Source: Eubacteriaceae bacterium ES3
GTDB taxonomy: Bacteria; Bacillota; Clostridia; Eubacteriales; Eubacteriaceae
NCBI GenBank assembly: GCA_030586155.1
Contig: CP130741.1
Location: 986,680-1,050,679 of the forward strand
Length of the DNA: 64,000 bases
Direction: 5' to 3'
Shown here: positions 3,334-63,178 of the stretch, one piece after another
How the letters are laid out: every line of letters begins with the position of its first letter
Numbering within the stretch: position 1 is the first letter of the stretch
The notes under the pieces: generated by a model
The model's input: the letters and a program-made list of their open reading frames with translations, nothing else
Databases searched by the model: none
What the model was told of the DNA's origin: nothing
Position numbers and translations under genes: made by a program

Positions 3334-5447
<2,114 letters not shown>

Positions 5448-12399: not shown

Positions 12400-15003
12400 A
12401 TGGATATGAATTTATTTACTCAGAAATCACTGGAAGCAATTAAGACTGCTGAACTTTTAGCGGGTGAATACAACCATATGGAGATTGAGCCGGAACACTT
12501 GTTAATGGCATTAATTACTCAGGAAAATGGTGTAGTAGGACGGATTTTTGATCGTTTAGGGAAAAATTCCTTGTCAATTGTAGAAGACATCAAGCACGAA
12601 TTATCCAGAAGGCCAAGCGTCTCAGGACCTGGACGAGAACAGGGAAAAGTTTATATCAGTGGGGATACTGAAAAAGTATTAAATGCTTCGTATAAAGAAG
12701 CAAAAAAATTGGATGACCAGTATATCTCAGTTGAATGTATTTTATTAGGGATTTTTAGTCTCAGTAAAAAATCCAAGGCTGTAGAGATTCTGGATCGTTA
12801 TGGTGTAAAAAAGGATGAGGTTGAATCGATCATTAATGAGGTGCGAGGTGGTCAGCGGGTCACCAGTGATCATCCGGAAAACACATATGAAGCCTTAAGT
12901 CAATATGGACATGACCTGGTTCAGGATGCTAAAGATAACAAACTTGATCCTGTAATTGGCAGGGATGCTGAAATAAGACACGCGATTAGAATTTTAAGCC
13001 GTAAAACGAAAAATAATCCGGTCTTAATTGGTGAGCCGGGTGTAGGTAAAACAGCAATCGTTGAAGGTCTGGCGGCTCGAATAGTAGCCGGCGATGTACC
13101 GGAAGGCTTAAAAGACAAACGTATTATTGCTTTGGATTTAGGGGCGATGGTGGCTGGAGCTAAATATCGAGGCGAATTTGAAGAGCGTTTAAAAGCGGTT
13201 CTTAAAGAAGTGGTTGACAGCAATGGCGAAATCATTCTCTTTATTGATGAGCTGCATACCATTGTCGGAGCCGGTAAAACTGAAGGTGCGATGGATGCCG
13301 GTAATATGTTAAAACCGATGCTTGCCCGTGGGGAACTCCATTGTATTGGAGCAACAACTCTTGATGAATATCGACAGTATATAGAAAAGGACCCTGCCCT
13401 CGAACGCCGCTTCCAGCCAGTTCTGGTTGATGAACCAAGCGTCGAGGATACCATATCAATATTGCGTGGATTAAAGGATACCTATGAACGCTTCCACGGC
13501 GTACAGATTCTTGATACTGCTTTAGTTGCTGCTGCAACACTGTCAGACCGCTATGTTTCAGATCGATTTTTGCCGGATAAAGCCATCGATTTGATCGATG
13601 AAGCTTGTTCCAAAATTCGAACTGAACTTGATTCCATGCCAGAAGAAATGGATGAAGTCAGACGAAAAATGATGCAGCTGGAAATAGAAGAAGTGGCACT
13701 AAAAAAAGAAAAAGACAATTTAAGCAAAGAACGTCTGGAAAGGCTTCAAAAGGAGCTGGCAGAATATAAAGATCGATTTAATGAAATGAGTATTCAGTGG
13801 GAAAATGAGAAATTTTCAGCAGAAAATTTAAAACAGATTCAGGAAGAACTTAATGACCTAAACTATCAGCGGGAAAAAGCGGTCAGAGAAGGCGATTATC
13901 AAAAAGCATCTGAGCTGGAATATGGTCTAATACCGCAAAAGACCGCAAAATTAGAAGAATTAAAGCAGGCTGCTGAAGATAAAAACGATGAGGCAAGTTT
14001 AAAACGCGAAAAAGTGACAGAAGAAGAAATTGCTGAAATTATTTCTGACTGGACCAATATTCCCTTAAGTAAACTGGTTTCAGGTGAACGGGAAAAACTT
14101 TTATCACTGGAAGATACATTAAAAGATCGGGTAATTGGTCAGGAAGAGCCGATTATTAAAGTAGTGGATGCGATTATTCGTTCTCGAGCCGGTATTAAAA
14201 ACCCCAACAGTCCTATTGGTTCATTCCTGTTCTTGGGTCCGACCGGTGTAGGGAAAACGGAACTGGCTAAGGCCGTCGCTGCTACATTGTTTGATTCCGA
14301 AGACAATATGATCAGAATCGATATGAGTGAATATATGGAGAAATTTTCTGTTTCTCGATTAATTGGAGCCCCTCCGGGATATGTGGGTTATGAAGAAGGC
14401 GGCCAGCTGACTGAAGCAGTTAGAAGAAAACCATATAGTGTTATTCTCCTGGATGAAATTGAAAAAGCCCATAAGGATGTCTTTAATATTCTGCTGCAGA
14501 TTCTTGATGACGGACGAATCACTGATTCGCAAGGCAGAACGGTAGATTTTAAGAATACCATCATTATTATGACTTCCAACATTGGTTCAGAATATCTGCT
14601 TGAAGGAATCAATCAGGATGGAGAAATCAAACCTGAAGCAGAAGCAGCTGTTATGGATCTTTTAAAAAGCTATTTCAGACCGGAGTTTTTAAACCGAATT
14701 GATGAGATTGTACTCTATAAACCCCTTAGTAAAGCGTCTATTGGAAAAATTGTTGATTTAATGCTTGATGATATCTTAAAGCGTCTGAAAGATAAACGCA
14801 TTACTTTTACCCTTAGTCAAGCCGCTAAAGATCAGATTATTAATTTGGGATTCGATCCGGCTTATGGAGCCAGACCATTAAAACGTTACCTGCAAAAACA
14901 TATCGAAACAATGATTGGTAAGGAAATTATCAAAGGAAACATTCACGAAGGGCAGAATCTGACCATTGGTTTAAATGATAATGGAGACTTTTACATCTCC
15001 TGA
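12400..15003 (+). CDS. clpB: ClpB, ATP-dependent disaggregase
   Basis: An 867-residue Hsp100 protein with the full ClpB layout: Clp_N repeats (1-145), AAA1 with Walker A GEPGVGKT near 211, the coiled-coil M domain (about 400-530, rich in Glu/Lys) that marks ClpB rather than ClpC, AAA2 with GPTGVGKT near 613, and the C-terminal D2 small domain with [12 protein letters not shown]. It threads aggregated proteins with DnaK in the cytoplasm. ATG 12400 is taken, though ATG 12406 is also possible. It is in one unit with the upstream RHH protein. Confidence 0.95.
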
Positions 15004-15004
15004 T

Positions 15005-15030
15005 AGAAAAGAGGCGCAAGCCTCTTTTCT
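15005..15030 (+). terminator. clpB terminator
   Basis: AGAAAAGAGGC-GCAA-GCCTCTTTTCT: an 11-bp perfect stem starting 2 bp after the clpB stop. The T run is inside the 3' arm only, so termination may be partial and read into the RNA element that follows. Confidence 0.75.
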
Positions 15031-15036
15031 GTCAGG

Positions 15037-15236
15037 AGACAAAGTAAATATACGCACCTGAGCACCGACAATTGGCTTTTCAGTAGGCTGCATCGGGGCG
15101 AACAGTTGCTCGAAAACGCCTTTAATTAGCGTTTCCAAATTGGGCAACTTTATGAATCCGCAGCAGCCTACGAAATTCAATTGGGCGGTGCGGGGTTTGT
15201 CTACGCACTGAAAGAGGCATTAGCCTCTTTTTGTTT
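15037..15236 (+). ncRNA. Rod-shaped structured RNA candidate
   Basis: Nested complementary segments run in order: AGACAAA (15037-15043) with TTTGTCT (15196-15202), GCACCG (15062-15067) with CGGTGC (15186-15191), CAATTG (15069-15074) with CAATTG (15178-15183), GTAGGCTGC (15083-15091) with GCAGCCTAC (15163-15171), GTTGC (15105-15109) with GCAAC (15144-15148), and AAACGC (15114-15119) with GCGTTT (15129-15134). A terminator GAGGC-ATTA-GCCTC plus T tract closes it at 15213-15235. No credible ORF is present on the + strand. Strand choice rests on the terminator. Length and shape would fit a 6S-like or raiA-type RNA, but I cannot place it in a family. Confidence 0.6.
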
Positions 15237-28583: not shown

Positions 28584-28625
28584 GCAAAGAAAAAGATGAT
28601 TGGTTAAAATCATCTTGTAGACTTA

Positions 28626-32014: not shown

Positions 32015-33764
32015 TAGGTAATTGCGAAATGAAAACAAAAATGAAAAAAATGAGAAAGTAGAGCATGAAGAGAGCTGATTAAAAAAGTATGACAAAAAAA
32101 GCAGGAAGCGTTGCAAAAAAAAGGCGCAAAAATAAAAGCCTGAGAAAAGCCTGAAAAAAACTTTATTTTAGCAGTTAGGCAATCAGTTTTTTAAGACTGC
32201 GGATGTATTGAAGCTGATGAATGTTGTCAGCAAGAATGACAGTAATCAGCTGGGTAATGCCAGCCAGGAGCAGATCCGCGCGAAGCGTCCGAGCATTTCT
32301 TGTTTTGCGACCGGCAACACAGAAAGAATCTTTGAAATGATTGAGTGACTGTTCAACAACACCGCGAATTTTATAGATTTGCTGCCACTCGTCAGTACCC
32401 CGAAGCGTACCTGGGTAAGCTCTAAGGTTTTTTTCAGGGTAAACATAGAACATCCGGCCACAGGAAGAAGGTGTGCAGGGTTTTTCGCAGAAACACTGAC
32501 GTTTGGATTTACCGGATTGCTGCCTGACCCATCGGGTTTTGGGACAGGTAAATTTAAAGCGGACGAGACCATTTTTACGCCTGGTTTTACCTTCCGGTTT
32601 CATGGGAAGTGAAGGGTTGTCCGGACAACAGGGGATACCATGCTCATTAACCGGGCAATCGGAATAAGAAAGGGAGCCCCGCGAATTGAGGGGAATGAAG
32701 GCTTTTTCAAACTTTAAATCAGTCAGCAGCGAGTGATAAATGACTGAGCTGTCAAAAGCGGCATCACCAATAAAAAGTTTGGGAACAATCAGCGGATGCT
32801 TTTTAAAAAAGTCGGAAAGAACAGGAATAAGTGCTTTGGTATCATGGAGCGACTTGTCCTCGTCGGGAGAATCAGACTTTTTCTCAACAGCAATATCAGG
32901 ATGATCAACCAGAAAGTTGGCATCATAAAAAGAGATATCCCGGACAATGCCAAGGCCGTTGGTGATCATGCCGAATTTATAGACATAACAGAAATGACCG
33001 TTGATATAAAGCTGTTTAATAGAAGAATTGGCTTTAGCGTGGGTGGGCATGGCGCCATAGGCGGCCTTGTAGGGATCATAGGAATCATCCAGCTGATGGG
33101 TTTTCTTGAAAGCTTTGAGCTGTTTGATGATTTTATTGGCAAATTTGGGATTATTTTCAGTAACATAGGCTTCAATTCCCGAAGTATCAAAGATGGTCAT
33201 CATGGCCTTATGAGCATCGATCTTTTGGCAGATTGGTTCAGTTACATCAACAAGTTGATGAAAAAACGATTGTAAGTCCGGAAGATAATCTTGCTTGAAG
33301 CGAGTCAGCTGGGATGCGTGGGGAACTCTGCTGAAACCGCAGAAATCCCTTAATTCGCTGGAAAACTTGAGAAAAGTGATCAGCAGGGTGTCAGTGGGAA
33401 TGGAAAAAATTCGCTGCAGAATGAATGCCCAAAGAATGGAACAAAGCTCAAAATCACGGTGTCGCCCATTACAAGCATAGTAATGACTGTAAAAAGAATG
33501 TGGAACCAGAGCATGAAGGTCAAGTTTTTCTTCCAGCAGTGAAAGAAAGTGATGTTTGTCCTGTTCAAAAAAATGAGTGCAATCAGCATAAATTTCAGCA
33601 AACGAAAGCTGTTTTTGTGGTAAAATATCCATATATAACTCCTTTCAGGATGATGGATTGTTGTGGTTGTAACTCAATTTTATCATAATCTGGTGAGGAG
33701 TTATATTTTTTTATGTTAAAAATATCCCGCTATTATGCGGGTTATGGCATTTCGCAAATGCCTA
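32015..33764 (-). mobile_element. Insertion sequence, tandem copy 1
   Basis: A 1750-bp element. Its ends are imperfect inverted repeats: TAGGTAATTGCGAAATG (32015-32031) and CATTTCGCAAATGCCTA (33748-33764), 15 of 17 matching. It carries one transposase gene on the minus strand. It differs from copies 2 and 3 only by C instead of T at 33089, as far as I could compare. A small hairpin CCCGC-TATTAT-GCGGG sits just inside the right end. Confidence 0.92.
32175..33632 (-). CDS. DDE transposase, copy 1 (IS4-superfamily, possibly IS1182-like)
   Basis: A 485-residue transposase with a DDE/RNase H fold: first Asp in T-I-F-D-T-S-G-I-E, second in F-I-G-D-A-A-F-D-S, and Glu in the signature Y-x2-R-x3-E-x6-K (YKIRGVVEQSLNHFK) that marks the IS4 superfamily. 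A cysteine-rich insertion lies before the Glu, with about ten Cys between residues 310 and 400, which may bind zinc. It cuts and joins the element ends. The ribosome site AAAGGAG lies before the ATG at 33632. This copy reads D at the residue where the other two read N (H-Q-L-D/N-D-S). The open frame is intact. Confidence 0.9.
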   Translation of the reverse strand: MDILPQKQLSFAEIYADCTHFFEQDKHHFLSLLEEKLDLHALVPHSFYSHYYACNGRHRDFELCSILWAFILQRIFSIPTDTLLITFLKFSSELRDFCGFSRVPHASQLTRFKQDYLPDLQSFFHQLVDVTEPICQKIDAHKAMMTIFDTSGIEAYVTENNPKFANKIIKQLKAFKKTHQLDDSYDPYKAAYGAMPTHAKANSSIKQLYINGHFCYVYKFGMITNGLGIVRDISFYDANFLVDHPDIAVEKKSDSPDEDKSLHDTKALIPVLSDFFKKHPLIVPKLFIGDAAFDSSVIYHSLLTDLKFEKAFIPLNSRGSLSYSDCPVNEHGIPCCPDNPSLPMKPEGKTRRKNGLVRFKFTCPKTRWVRQQSGKSKRQCFCEKPCTPSSCGRMFYVYPEKNLRAYPGTLRGTDEWQQIYKIRGVVEQSLNHFKDSFCVAGRKTRNARTLRADLLLAGITQLITVILADNIHQLQYIRSLKKLIA

Positions 33765-33935
33765 TTTAATTTTAATAGGTAATTGCGAAATGAAAACAAA
33801 AATGAAAAAAATGAGAAAGTAGAGCATGAAGAGAGCTGATTAAAAAAGTATGACAAAAAAAGCAGGAAGCGTTGCAAAAAAAAGGCGCAAAAATAAAAGC
33901 CTGAGAAAAGCCTGAAAAAAACTTTATTTTAGCAG
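33633..33935. other. Non-coding DNA spanning the IS copy 1/copy 2 junction
   Basis: This 303-bp gap holds the right end of IS copy 1 (transposase ribosome site and minus-strand promoter region, hairpin at 33726-33742, inverted repeat 33748-33764), the 11-bp repeat at 33765-33775, and the non-coding left end of copy 2 (inverted repeat 33776-33792, then A-rich DNA). No gene is seen. The same holds for 35394-35696. Confidence 0.85.
33765..33775. repeat. 11-bp direct repeat, copy 2 of 4
   Basis: TTTAATTTTAA shared by IS copies 1 and 2; identical to the outer flanks of the array. Confidence 0.8.
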
Positions 33936-35525
33936 TTAGGCAATCAGTTTTTTAAGACTGCGGATGTATTGAAGCTGATGAATGTTGTCAGCAAGAATGA
34001 CAGTAATCAGCTGGGTAATGCCAGCCAGGAGCAGATCCGCGCGAAGCGTCCGAGCATTTCTTGTTTTGCGACCGGCAACACAGAAAGAATCTTTGAAATG
34101 ATTGAGTGACTGTTCAACAACACCGCGAATTTTATAGATTTGCTGCCACTCGTCAGTACCCCGAAGCGTACCTGGGTAAGCTCTAAGGTTTTTTTCAGGG
34201 TAAACATAGAACATCCGGCCACAGGAAGAAGGTGTGCAGGGTTTTTCGCAGAAACACTGACGTTTGGATTTACCGGATTGCTGCCTGACCCATCGGGTTT
34301 TGGGACAGGTAAATTTAAAGCGGACGAGACCATTTTTACGCCTGGTTTTACCTTCCGGTTTCATGGGAAGTGAAGGGTTGTCCGGACAACAGGGGATACC
34401 ATGCTCATTAACCGGGCAATCGGAATAAGAAAGGGAGCCCCGCGAATTGAGGGGAATGAAGGCTTTTTCAAACTTTAAATCAGTCAGCAGCGAGTGATAA
34501 ATGACTGAGCTGTCAAAAGCGGCATCACCAATAAAAAGTTTGGGAACAATCAGCGGATGCTTTTTAAAAAAGTCGGAAAGAACAGGAATAAGTGCTTTGG
34601 TATCATGGAGCGACTTGTCCTCGTCGGGAGAATCAGACTTTTTCTCAACAGCAATATCAGGATGATCAACCAGAAAGTTGGCATCATAAAAAGAGATATC
34701 CCGGACAATGCCAAGGCCGTTGGTGATCATGCCGAATTTATAGACATAACAGAAATGACCGTTGATATAAAGCTGTTTAATAGAAGAATTGGCTTTAGCG
34801 TGGGTGGGCATGGCGCCATAGGCGGCCTTGTAGGGATCATAGGAATCATTCAGCTGATGGGTTTTCTTGAAAGCTTTGAGCTGTTTGATGATTTTATTGG
34901 CAAATTTGGGATTATTTTCAGTAACATAGGCTTCAATTCCCGAAGTATCAAAGATGGTCATCATGGCCTTATGAGCATCGATCTTTTGGCAGATTGGTTC
35001 AGTTACATCAACAAGTTGATGAAAAAACGATTGTAAGTCCGGAAGATAATCTTGCTTGAAGCGAGTCAGCTGGGATGCGTGGGGAACTCTGCTGAAACCG
35101 CAGAAATCCCTTAATTCGCTGGAAAACTTGAGAAAAGTGATCAGCAGGGTGTCAGTGGGAATGGAAAAAATTCGCTGCAGAATGAATGCCCAAAGAATGG
35201 AACAAAGCTCAAAATCACGGTGTCGCCCATTACAAGCATAGTAATGACTGTAAAAAGAATGTGGAACCAGAGCATGAAGGTCAAGTTTTTCTTCCAGCAG
35301 TGAAAGAAAGTGATGTTTGTCCTGTTCAAAAAAATGAGTGCAATCAGCATAAATTTCAGCAAACGAAAGCTGTTTTTGTGGTAAAATATCCATATATAAC
35401 TCCTTTCAGGATGATGGATTGTTGTGGTTGTAACTCAATTTTATCATAATCTGGTGAGGAGTTATATTTTTTTATGTTAAAAATATCCCGCTATTATGCG
35501 GGTTATGGCATTTCGCAAATGCCTA
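33776..35525 (-). mobile_element. Insertion sequence, tandem copy 2
   Basis: A second 1750-bp element in the same orientation, offset from copy 1 by exactly 1761 bp, with the same inverted repeats at both ends. It seems identical to copy 3. Confidence 0.92.
33936..35393 (-). CDS. DDE transposase, copy 2
   Basis: An intact 485-residue transposase identical to copy 3 and differing from copy 1 by one residue (N for D in H-Q-L-N-D-S, from T at 34850). Same catalytic Asp, Asp and Glu motifs and Cys-rich insertion as copy 1. All three copies being intact suggests the amplification is recent and that each could still be active. Confidence 0.9.
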   Translation of the reverse strand: MDILPQKQLSFAEIYADCTHFFEQDKHHFLSLLEEKLDLHALVPHSFYSHYYACNGRHRDFELCSILWAFILQRIFSIPTDTLLITFLKFSSELRDFCGFSRVPHASQLTRFKQDYLPDLQSFFHQLVDVTEPICQKIDAHKAMMTIFDTSGIEAYVTENNPKFANKIIKQLKAFKKTHQLNDSYDPYKAAYGAMPTHAKANSSIKQLYINGHFCYVYKFGMITNGLGIVRDISFYDANFLVDHPDIAVEKKSDSPDEDKSLHDTKALIPVLSDFFKKHPLIVPKLFIGDAAFDSSVIYHSLLTDLKFEKAFIPLNSRGSLSYSDCPVNEHGIPCCPDNPSLPMKPEGKTRRKNGLVRFKFTCPKTRWVRQQSGKSKRQCFCEKPCTPSSCGRMFYVYPEKNLRAYPGTLRGTDEWQQIYKIRGVVEQSLNHFKDSFCVAGRKTRNARTLRADLLLAGITQLITVILADNIHQLQYIRSLKKLIA

Positions 35526-35536
35526 TTTAATTTTAA
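35526..35536. repeat. 11-bp direct repeat, copy 3 of 4
   Basis: TTTAATTTTAA between IS copies 2 and 3. Confidence 0.8.
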
Positions 35537-37286
35537 TAGGTAATTGCGAAATGAAAACAAAAATGAAAAAAATGAGAAAGTAGAGCATGAAGAGAGCTGA
35601 TTAAAAAAGTATGACAAAAAAAGCAGGAAGCGTTGCAAAAAAAAGGCGCAAAAATAAAAGCCTGAGAAAAGCCTGAAAAAAACTTTATTTTAGCAGTTAG
35701 GCAATCAGTTTTTTAAGACTGCGGATGTATTGAAGCTGATGAATGTTGTCAGCAAGAATGACAGTAATCAGCTGGGTAATGCCAGCCAGGAGCAGATCCG
35801 CGCGAAGCGTCCGAGCATTTCTTGTTTTGCGACCGGCAACACAGAAAGAATCTTTGAAATGATTGAGTGACTGTTCAACAACACCGCGAATTTTATAGAT
35901 TTGCTGCCACTCGTCAGTACCCCGAAGCGTACCTGGGTAAGCTCTAAGGTTTTTTTCAGGGTAAACATAGAACATCCGGCCACAGGAAGAAGGTGTGCAG
36001 GGTTTTTCGCAGAAACACTGACGTTTGGATTTACCGGATTGCTGCCTGACCCATCGGGTTTTGGGACAGGTAAATTTAAAGCGGACGAGACCATTTTTAC
36101 GCCTGGTTTTACCTTCCGGTTTCATGGGAAGTGAAGGGTTGTCCGGACAACAGGGGATACCATGCTCATTAACCGGGCAATCGGAATAAGAAAGGGAGCC
36201 CCGCGAATTGAGGGGAATGAAGGCTTTTTCAAACTTTAAATCAGTCAGCAGCGAGTGATAAATGACTGAGCTGTCAAAAGCGGCATCACCAATAAAAAGT
36301 TTGGGAACAATCAGCGGATGCTTTTTAAAAAAGTCGGAAAGAACAGGAATAAGTGCTTTGGTATCATGGAGCGACTTGTCCTCGTCGGGAGAATCAGACT
36401 TTTTCTCAACAGCAATATCAGGATGATCAACCAGAAAGTTGGCATCATAAAAAGAGATATCCCGGACAATGCCAAGGCCGTTGGTGATCATGCCGAATTT
36501 ATAGACATAACAGAAATGACCGTTGATATAAAGCTGTTTAATAGAAGAATTGGCTTTAGCGTGGGTGGGCATGGCGCCATAGGCGGCCTTGTAGGGATCA
36601 TAGGAATCATTCAGCTGATGGGTTTTCTTGAAAGCTTTGAGCTGTTTGATGATTTTATTGGCAAATTTGGGATTATTTTCAGTAACATAGGCTTCAATTC
36701 CCGAAGTATCAAAGATGGTCATCATGGCCTTATGAGCATCGATCTTTTGGCAGATTGGTTCAGTTACATCAACAAGTTGATGAAAAAACGATTGTAAGTC
36801 CGGAAGATAATCTTGCTTGAAGCGAGTCAGCTGGGATGCGTGGGGAACTCTGCTGAAACCGCAGAAATCCCTTAATTCGCTGGAAAACTTGAGAAAAGTG
36901 ATCAGCAGGGTGTCAGTGGGAATGGAAAAAATTCGCTGCAGAATGAATGCCCAAAGAATGGAACAAAGCTCAAAATCACGGTGTCGCCCATTACAAGCAT
37001 AGTAATGACTGTAAAAAGAATGTGGAACCAGAGCATGAAGGTCAAGTTTTTCTTCCAGCAGTGAAAGAAAGTGATGTTTGTCCTGTTCAAAAAAATGAGT
37101 GCAATCAGCATAAATTTCAGCAAACGAAAGCTGTTTTTGTGGTAAAATATCCATATATAACTCCTTTCAGGATGATGGATTGTTGTGGTTGTAACTCAAT
37201 TTTATCATAATCTGGTGAGGAGTTATATTTTTTTATGTTAAAAATATCCCGCTATTATGCGGGTTATGGCATTTCGCAAATGCCTA
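35537..37286 (-). mobile_element. Insertion sequence, tandem copy 3
   Basis: The third 1750-bp element, again at a 1761-bp offset in the same orientation. Its right inverted repeat ends at 37286 and the flank TTTAATTTTAA follows at 37287-37297, only 14 bp before the usp start codon. Confidence 0.92.
35697..37154 (-). CDS. DDE transposase, copy 3
   Basis: An intact 485-residue transposase identical to copy 2 (T at 36611). It is transcribed away from the usp gene. The region between its start and the element end holds the likely transposase promoter on the minus strand, with the -10-like TATGATAAAAT. Confidence 0.9.
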   Translation of the reverse strand: MDILPQKQLSFAEIYADCTHFFEQDKHHFLSLLEEKLDLHALVPHSFYSHYYACNGRHRDFELCSILWAFILQRIFSIPTDTLLITFLKFSSELRDFCGFSRVPHASQLTRFKQDYLPDLQSFFHQLVDVTEPICQKIDAHKAMMTIFDTSGIEAYVTENNPKFANKIIKQLKAFKKTHQLNDSYDPYKAAYGAMPTHAKANSSIKQLYINGHFCYVYKFGMITNGLGIVRDISFYDANFLVDHPDIAVEKKSDSPDEDKSLHDTKALIPVLSDFFKKHPLIVPKLFIGDAAFDSSVIYHSLLTDLKFEKAFIPLNSRGSLSYSDCPVNEHGIPCCPDNPSLPMKPEGKTRRKNGLVRFKFTCPKTRWVRQQSGKSKRQCFCEKPCTPSSCGRMFYVYPEKNLRAYPGTLRGTDEWQQIYKIRGVVEQSLNHFKDSFCVAGRKTRNARTLRADLLLAGITQLITVILADNIHQLQYIRSLKKLIA

Positions 37287-37297
37287 TTTAATTTTAA
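37287..37297. repeat. 11-bp direct repeat, copy 4 of 4
   Basis: TTTAATTTTAA at the right edge of the array, followed directly by the ribosome site ATGGAGGTAGG of the usp gene. Confidence 0.8.
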
Positions 37298-62987: not shown

Positions 62988-63172
62988 TTCTTCCTCCTAA
63001 AATATATAATACAGGTATCCCTGTTTTCAGGGCAATAAAAAACGACTGAAATCAGTCGTGCAGAATAAAAACCATCCTCTACACACTGGAAAGCGCAACC
63101 GTTTCCAGTTGCACTCTATCGACTTGAAAACCATAGATAACCTTTAGGCCTGCAAGTTCGGATTGCTTCTTG
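62988..63172 (-). promoter_or_regulatory. Structured tupABC leader RNA, riboswitch candidate
   Basis: About 185 nt of leader on the minus strand. Pairings given as plus-strand spans: GCAAG/CTTGC (63152-63156, 63169-63173), a closing stem CTGCA/TGCAG (63150-63154, 63059-63063), TCTAT/ATAGA (63115-63119, 63133-63137), and ACTGGAAA/TTTCCAGT (63085-63092, 63102-63109). It ends in a terminator-like stem ACGACTGA/TCAGTCGT (63042-63059) with a T run on the minus strand. The closing stem and terminator base overlap by a base, as in a switch. A molybdenum- or tungsten-cofactor type RNA would fit the gene, but I cannot match a family with certainty. Confidence 0.6.
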
Positions 63173-63178
63173 CTAGCT

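Follow-up and report, generated by a model that had tools for sequence, protein, structure and literature searches.

The structured stretch of DNA downstream of clpB is very probably a 182-bp palindromic non-autonomous element (MITE) that has inserted into the clpB terminator, moved by an IS1182-type transposase which targets terminator hairpins and duplicates them. It lies in a window of 64,000 nucleotides, the whole stretch analysed, from Eubacteriaceae bacterium ES3, whose genome is referred to here as G000. RNA folding of positions 15037-15236 yielded one long rod with an MFE of -82.2 kcal/mol, and none of 200 dinucleotide shuffles folded equally well (mean -51.76, sd 3.59, z -8.48), in agreement with the nested complementary arms described by an earlier, sequence-only reading. 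The separate terminator that this reading had placed after the rod was also recovered by a terminator scan, at 15210-15231. What the reading had missed is that this terminator repeats the clpB hairpin, that the unit has definite bounds (15029-15210) with inverted ends, and that it recurs in the genome. The boundaries were set by fuzzy matching to the ends of the family together with the flush repeat in the flanks. The 182-bp unit is flanked by two copies of the clpB terminator hairpin, forming a 21-nt direct repeat (15008-15028 and 15211-15231) with 18 of 21 positions identical and the 3 differences all in the loop. The features of the locus are as follows.

14996..15039, plus strand: extended stem that takes in the stop region of clpB, the left hairpin and the element's left end, with 20-nt arms that are 95% complementary (inverted pair; locus fold)
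15008..15028, plus strand: left-hand hairpin of the target duplication, the intrinsic terminator of clpB, AAAGAGGCGCAAGCCTCTTTT (direct repeat; flank comparison of copy L002)
15029..15210, plus strand: 182-bp palindromic element, very probably non-autonomous (MITE), folding as a rod (fold; repeated copies; boundaries)
15029..15043, plus strand: left terminal repeat, diverged in the window copy from the family consensus CAGACTGAAGACAAA (alignment; inverted pair)
15196..15210, minus strand: right terminal repeat, AGACAAA type if read inwards from its end (inverted pair; alignment)
15211..15231, plus strand: right-hand terminator hairpin of the target duplication, AAAGAGGCATTAGCCTCTTTT, with T-rich sequence after it (direct repeat; terminator scan)

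Alignment of the copies gave the family consensus ends CAGACTGAAGACAAAG and CAGTGTGTAGACAAAC. The window copy has terminal inverted repeats in an imperfect form, its left end being off the consensus at four positions (CTGTCAGGAGAC vs CAGACTGAAGAC). All four changes increase pairing with the clpB stop region, and the CTGTCAAAAAA left end is retained in two other G000 copies (L023 and L027). The drift looks like templated quasi-palindrome correction, by which the clpB terminator would have been lengthened. The 69-codon antisense frame noted earlier does exist, at 14971-15180. The stop-free run over the window element is 60 aa, compared to a median of 47 and a maximum of 61 among 68 copies of normal length, and the frame is therefore taken as incidental.

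The element belongs to a dispersed family. A DNA search of G000 returned 8 matches, corresponding to seven elements and one reverse-strand self-match of the clpB hairpin, and the same-genus relative G006 gave at least 13 (13 of 155 candidates scored). Among the 61 genomes searched, 10 further ones, all of the same genus, showed weaker and mostly partial matches, and 49 showed none. Scanning GTDB contigs with a conserved-core pattern found 105 stretches; among the 80 listed, 57 fell in the JASGLP01 assembly, 20 in contigs titled Acetobacterium and 3 under other titles. With up to 3 mismatches, the right-end pattern occurred at 115 places in G006 and 4 in G000, against 1 and 0 for the reversed-pattern control. 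The element thus has the size of a MITE (182 bp, below the limit of 500 bp), no coding sequence (longest stop-free run 60 aa, similar to other copies) and many dispersed copies; terminal inverted repeats are present in the family consensus, target-site duplications accompany 57 of 81 copies (21 nt in the window copy) and are complemented by unoccupied sites, and the type of end is common with autonomous IS1182-family elements.

Several copies depart from the basic form. Six copies in G006-type contigs (L032, L048, L063, L100, L114 and L120) carry an extra insertion of ~190 bp at the same spot in one arm, where query positions 155-160 jump to about 342 in the alignment; this insertion is apparently a nested element. 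Small CCAAGGGGTCAGACCC-type inserts are found in one or both rod arms of L015, L016, L023, L027 and L064. The core pattern was also seen in a contig titled Candidatus Obscuribacterales (L052), which may be mis-binned. In G006 one element lies ~70 nt from the 6S RNA gene, a position that has none in G000 (L085 vs L001).

Insertion sites were compared copy by copy. The 134 distinct core contexts listed include some that represent one copy in overlapping loci or one read both ways, and the 81 distinct copies with both ends recognised by fuzzy search were kept, the remaining ones being dropped before counting. Of these 81 copies, 57 have a direct repeat no more than 2-3 nt from each end, with a length of 16-29 nt (median 22), and the other 24 have no clear flush repeat. 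A looser comparison of 109 copies gave a median match of 27 between the two flanks of one copy vs 12 between copies, with 69 of the 109 above the 99th percentile. The duplicated sequence varies from locus to locus and corresponds to the local hairpin in almost every case; the few exceptions, clear repeats without a hairpin, include that of the L054 copy at 4009. When a hairpin was sought in the right flank independently of the repeat, it started no more than 2 nt from the element in 48 of the 57 copies, compared to 11.8% of shuffled flanks. For all 49 hairpins starting within 3 nt of the element, the far end also falls no more than 3 nt from that of the repeat, and hairpin length follows repeat length closely (Spearman 0.864, p 1.3e-15). 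On the expected side, 47 of the 57 copies show a preceding A tract or a following T tract (5 of 8 bases). Of the 50 copies with enough flank, 42 have the stop codon of a gene no more than 100 nt away, vs 147 of 780 random positions, and the elements are located at a median of about 13 nt past the stop codon. Among 29 copies of a sister subfamily, 11 have a left end with at most 2 mismatches to CAGACTGTCAAAAAA. Both ends could be identified in 2 of the 29, so that the duplications of this subfamily are supported by single loci (L012, L013, L017 and L036).

Unoccupied sites carry the hairpin once. At prfA, the element in genome G015 lies between GCTCTCCAATGATAGAGGGC and GCTCTCCAATGATGGAGGGC. Of 17 prfA loci read, 10 (L227-L236) have a single homologous hairpin without the element, one is occupied, and six are cut off or lack that hairpin. 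At trpS, G006 carries the element between two AGGCGG...CCGCCT hairpins and G000 has a single hairpin. A further unoccupied site is located in the window.

28593..28616, plus strand: unoccupied site with a single hairpin, at which G006 (L078) has the element between two hairpins (alignment)

The site at 53.4 kb of the window, compared with L034, shows no clear hairpin in G000. Among the clpB 3' regions of 19 genomes, of which that of G007 is readable to 26 nt only, the element is found solely in G000 and G006. A clean unoccupied clpB site with the same terminator was not found there, the relatives read other than G006 having different terminators or none obvious. The G000 and G006 copies at clpB are in opposite orientation between similar hairpins. 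Their identity is 83.5%, lower than the 92% that each shows to a relative elsewhere. The two copies therefore look like independent insertions into one terminator, and an in-place inversion is not favoured on the same figures.

The two arms of the rod are kept complementary, as indicated by compensatory double changes at paired positions. These changes, proposed by the sequence-only reading as a check, were found at 9 of 37 pairs in an alignment of 22 more diverse copies and at 2 of 41 pairs among 40 close copies. Such upkeep is expected whether the element works as folded DNA or as folded RNA. This bears on the reading that the MITE has since been co-opted, with the read-through rod serving as a clpB 3' UTR in transcript stability or as a decoy, which is compatible with the best explanation and which we consider rather unlikely. 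The complementary arms, the position of the elements just past stop codons and the left stem extended into the clpB stop region are consistent with it. However, upkeep of the palindrome is equally expected if movement needs folded DNA, and the copy number is very uneven among close relatives.

As to the mover, matches to NF033551 (IS1182-family transposase) are present in 17 of 19 genomes of the genus at E 0.001 and exceed the cut-off in 10. Of 18 IS1182 loci tested in the genus, one subtype has the ends CAGACTGTCAAAAAA / CAGACTGTCAAAGAA, represented by L198, L214 and a copy in G000. L198 and L214 are bordered by the same hairpin on both sides, with one or no difference, and the G000 copy (L206/L218) is broken, with flanking hairpins that are similar but diverged. 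The L214 protein scores 362.6 bits against NF033551 (cut-off 270) and clearly has the sequence of an IS1182 transposase. Seven further IS1182 relatives include four with the same hairpin on both sides (L277, L279, L282 and L283) and one adjoining two different hairpins (L284); L281, truncated at the start of its record, and L285 gave no convincing ends. The ends of L282-L284 are CAGNNTGTAGACAA, close to the element consensus. Thus L198, L214, L277, L279, L282 and L283 are like the clpB element in end type and in having the same hairpin on both sides, but they carry a transposase gene and have no likeness to the palindromic element beyond the ends. The transposase gene of L198 contains one in-frame stop, and that of L282 is possibly interrupted, its match falling in two pieces.

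Other candidates were set aside. The remaining IS1182 loci of the genus, with ends such as CGGGACCTGTG or GGGGCTGTCGG, are not of the element's end type. The IS1202/ISNCY family is known for a long target duplication; in G000, the NF033594 matches that were examined proved to be an unrelated element with ends TGTTAATTAGC. The window also contains, at about 32175-37288, three tandem insertion-sequence copies 1761 bp apart with 489-aa frames, which recur at seven more genomic places. As a mover these are rejected, being without ends of the element's type. No intact IS1182-family transposase with precisely these ends turned up in G000 or in G006, whose assembly is 85% complete. This result, together with the fact that the element and the IS1182 elements have only their ends in common, would fit movement by another transposase family with convergent IS1182-like ends. 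We regard that possibility as quite improbable, since L282 and L283 agree with the element in their ends and in the duplication of the hairpin, as L198 and L214 do with the sister subfamily. An IS1182-type transposase is thus the preferred mover.

The view that the rod is a dedicated structured regulatory RNA gene 3' of clpB with its own function draws on its very stable fold and on the compensatory changes that keep the arms complementary. We consider it very unlikely, as the copies are dispersed at unrelated genes, each with locus-specific flanking duplications, and the element is absent 3' of clpB in the readable same-genus genomes except G006. The covariance search proposed earlier, including the 6S and raiA models, returned no Rfam family at cut-off at the locus. 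The suggestion of a 6S RNA is not supported, with no RF00013 match here and the 6S gene of G000 located at C1:2336868-2337049 (49.9 bits), and neither is that of a raiA-type RNA. Relaxing E up to 10 produced 12 matches, all below the gathering score and mostly to eukaryotic miRNA and snoRNA models. The sole Rfam match at gathering score in the window is a Moco (molybdenum/tungsten cofactor) riboswitch at 63058-63175 on the minus strand (53.5 bits). Near the element, the only promoter-like site lies 3' of it and is at chance level. Of the proposal that the locus is a stable RNA rather than a gene, the complementary arms and the lack of a protein gene thus stand, but the unit is a dispersed element with a target duplication, and a dedicated RNA is not supported. 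Two terminators arising by tandem duplication or chance beside an unrelated rod, which the three differing loop bases of the window hairpins might suggest, can be practically dismissed, as flank hairpins agree within a locus and differ between loci, and the unoccupied relatives checked have a single hairpin.

Based on the natural insertions, we propose a mechanism for the insertion of the MITE. An IS1182-family DDE transposase would act in trans on CAGNNTGNAGACAAA-type ends and join the 3' ends of the element to the 5' foot of the hairpin on each strand, the target being treated like an extruded cruciform. Gap repair would copy the entire hairpin, resulting in an insertion between two hairpins with a duplication as long as the hairpin. 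The outer hairpin copy with its T tract would still be able to terminate transcription, and the rod would form a 3' UTR in transcripts that read past the first hairpin. Judged from the sequence, any RNA from the rod is probably such a clpB read-through product.

The length of a target duplication is usually fixed by the transposase, and ISfinder gives variable direct repeats for IS1182. Duplications of hairpins at many terminators suggest a transposase recognising DNA shape, and because the duplication length follows the hairpin length, we infer that a cruciform is recognised. More generally, we lean towards the view that this IS1182 branch and its MITEs read DNA shape and not sequence, and that cruciform strand transfer at both 5' feet duplicates terminators of any size.

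Similar targeting has been reported for IS1272 and TnSha1, IS1182-family elements of staphylococci that target hairpins, often terminators (PMC5678879, PMC4923244). According to these reports, the transposase family is the same, the hairpin is a target whatever its sequence, and one terminator can receive insertions in both orientations, as in the clpB copies here. However, IS1272 and TnSha1 delete the target hairpin wholly or partly without target duplication, whereas the whole hairpin is duplicated here; they are also described there as full insertion sequences or a composite transposon, with no MITE. Hairpin duplication is drawn for IS1272, in the part of the report available, only as a hypothetical pathway b (PMC5678879). 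Hairpin replacement of the IS1272 type was not seen in the present family, with a hairpin on both sides of the element and a single one at unoccupied sites. Bacterial MITEs are described as short, intergenic and multicopy, with terminal inverted repeats, moved in trans and giving transcripts that fold stably (PMC10969869). The clpB element has these features in common with them, but none in the available part of that account has a target duplication that corresponds to a terminator hairpin. No description of hairpin duplication by the present family was found in searches of one open-licence library.

These results carry a caution, that a stable rod at the end of a gene can be a mobile element and not an RNA gene. 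Across 57 natural insertions the target's own hairpin appears to set the length of the duplication, and recognition of cruciforms or hairpins by IS1182-family transposases becomes directly testable. They also raise the question of whether the deletion seen with IS1272 and the duplication seen in the clpB-element family are two outcomes of one reaction. If DNA shape is indeed what is read, the target itself would set the duplication length, and each insertion would keep a working terminator, a do-no-harm niche that may allow more than 100 copies in one genome.
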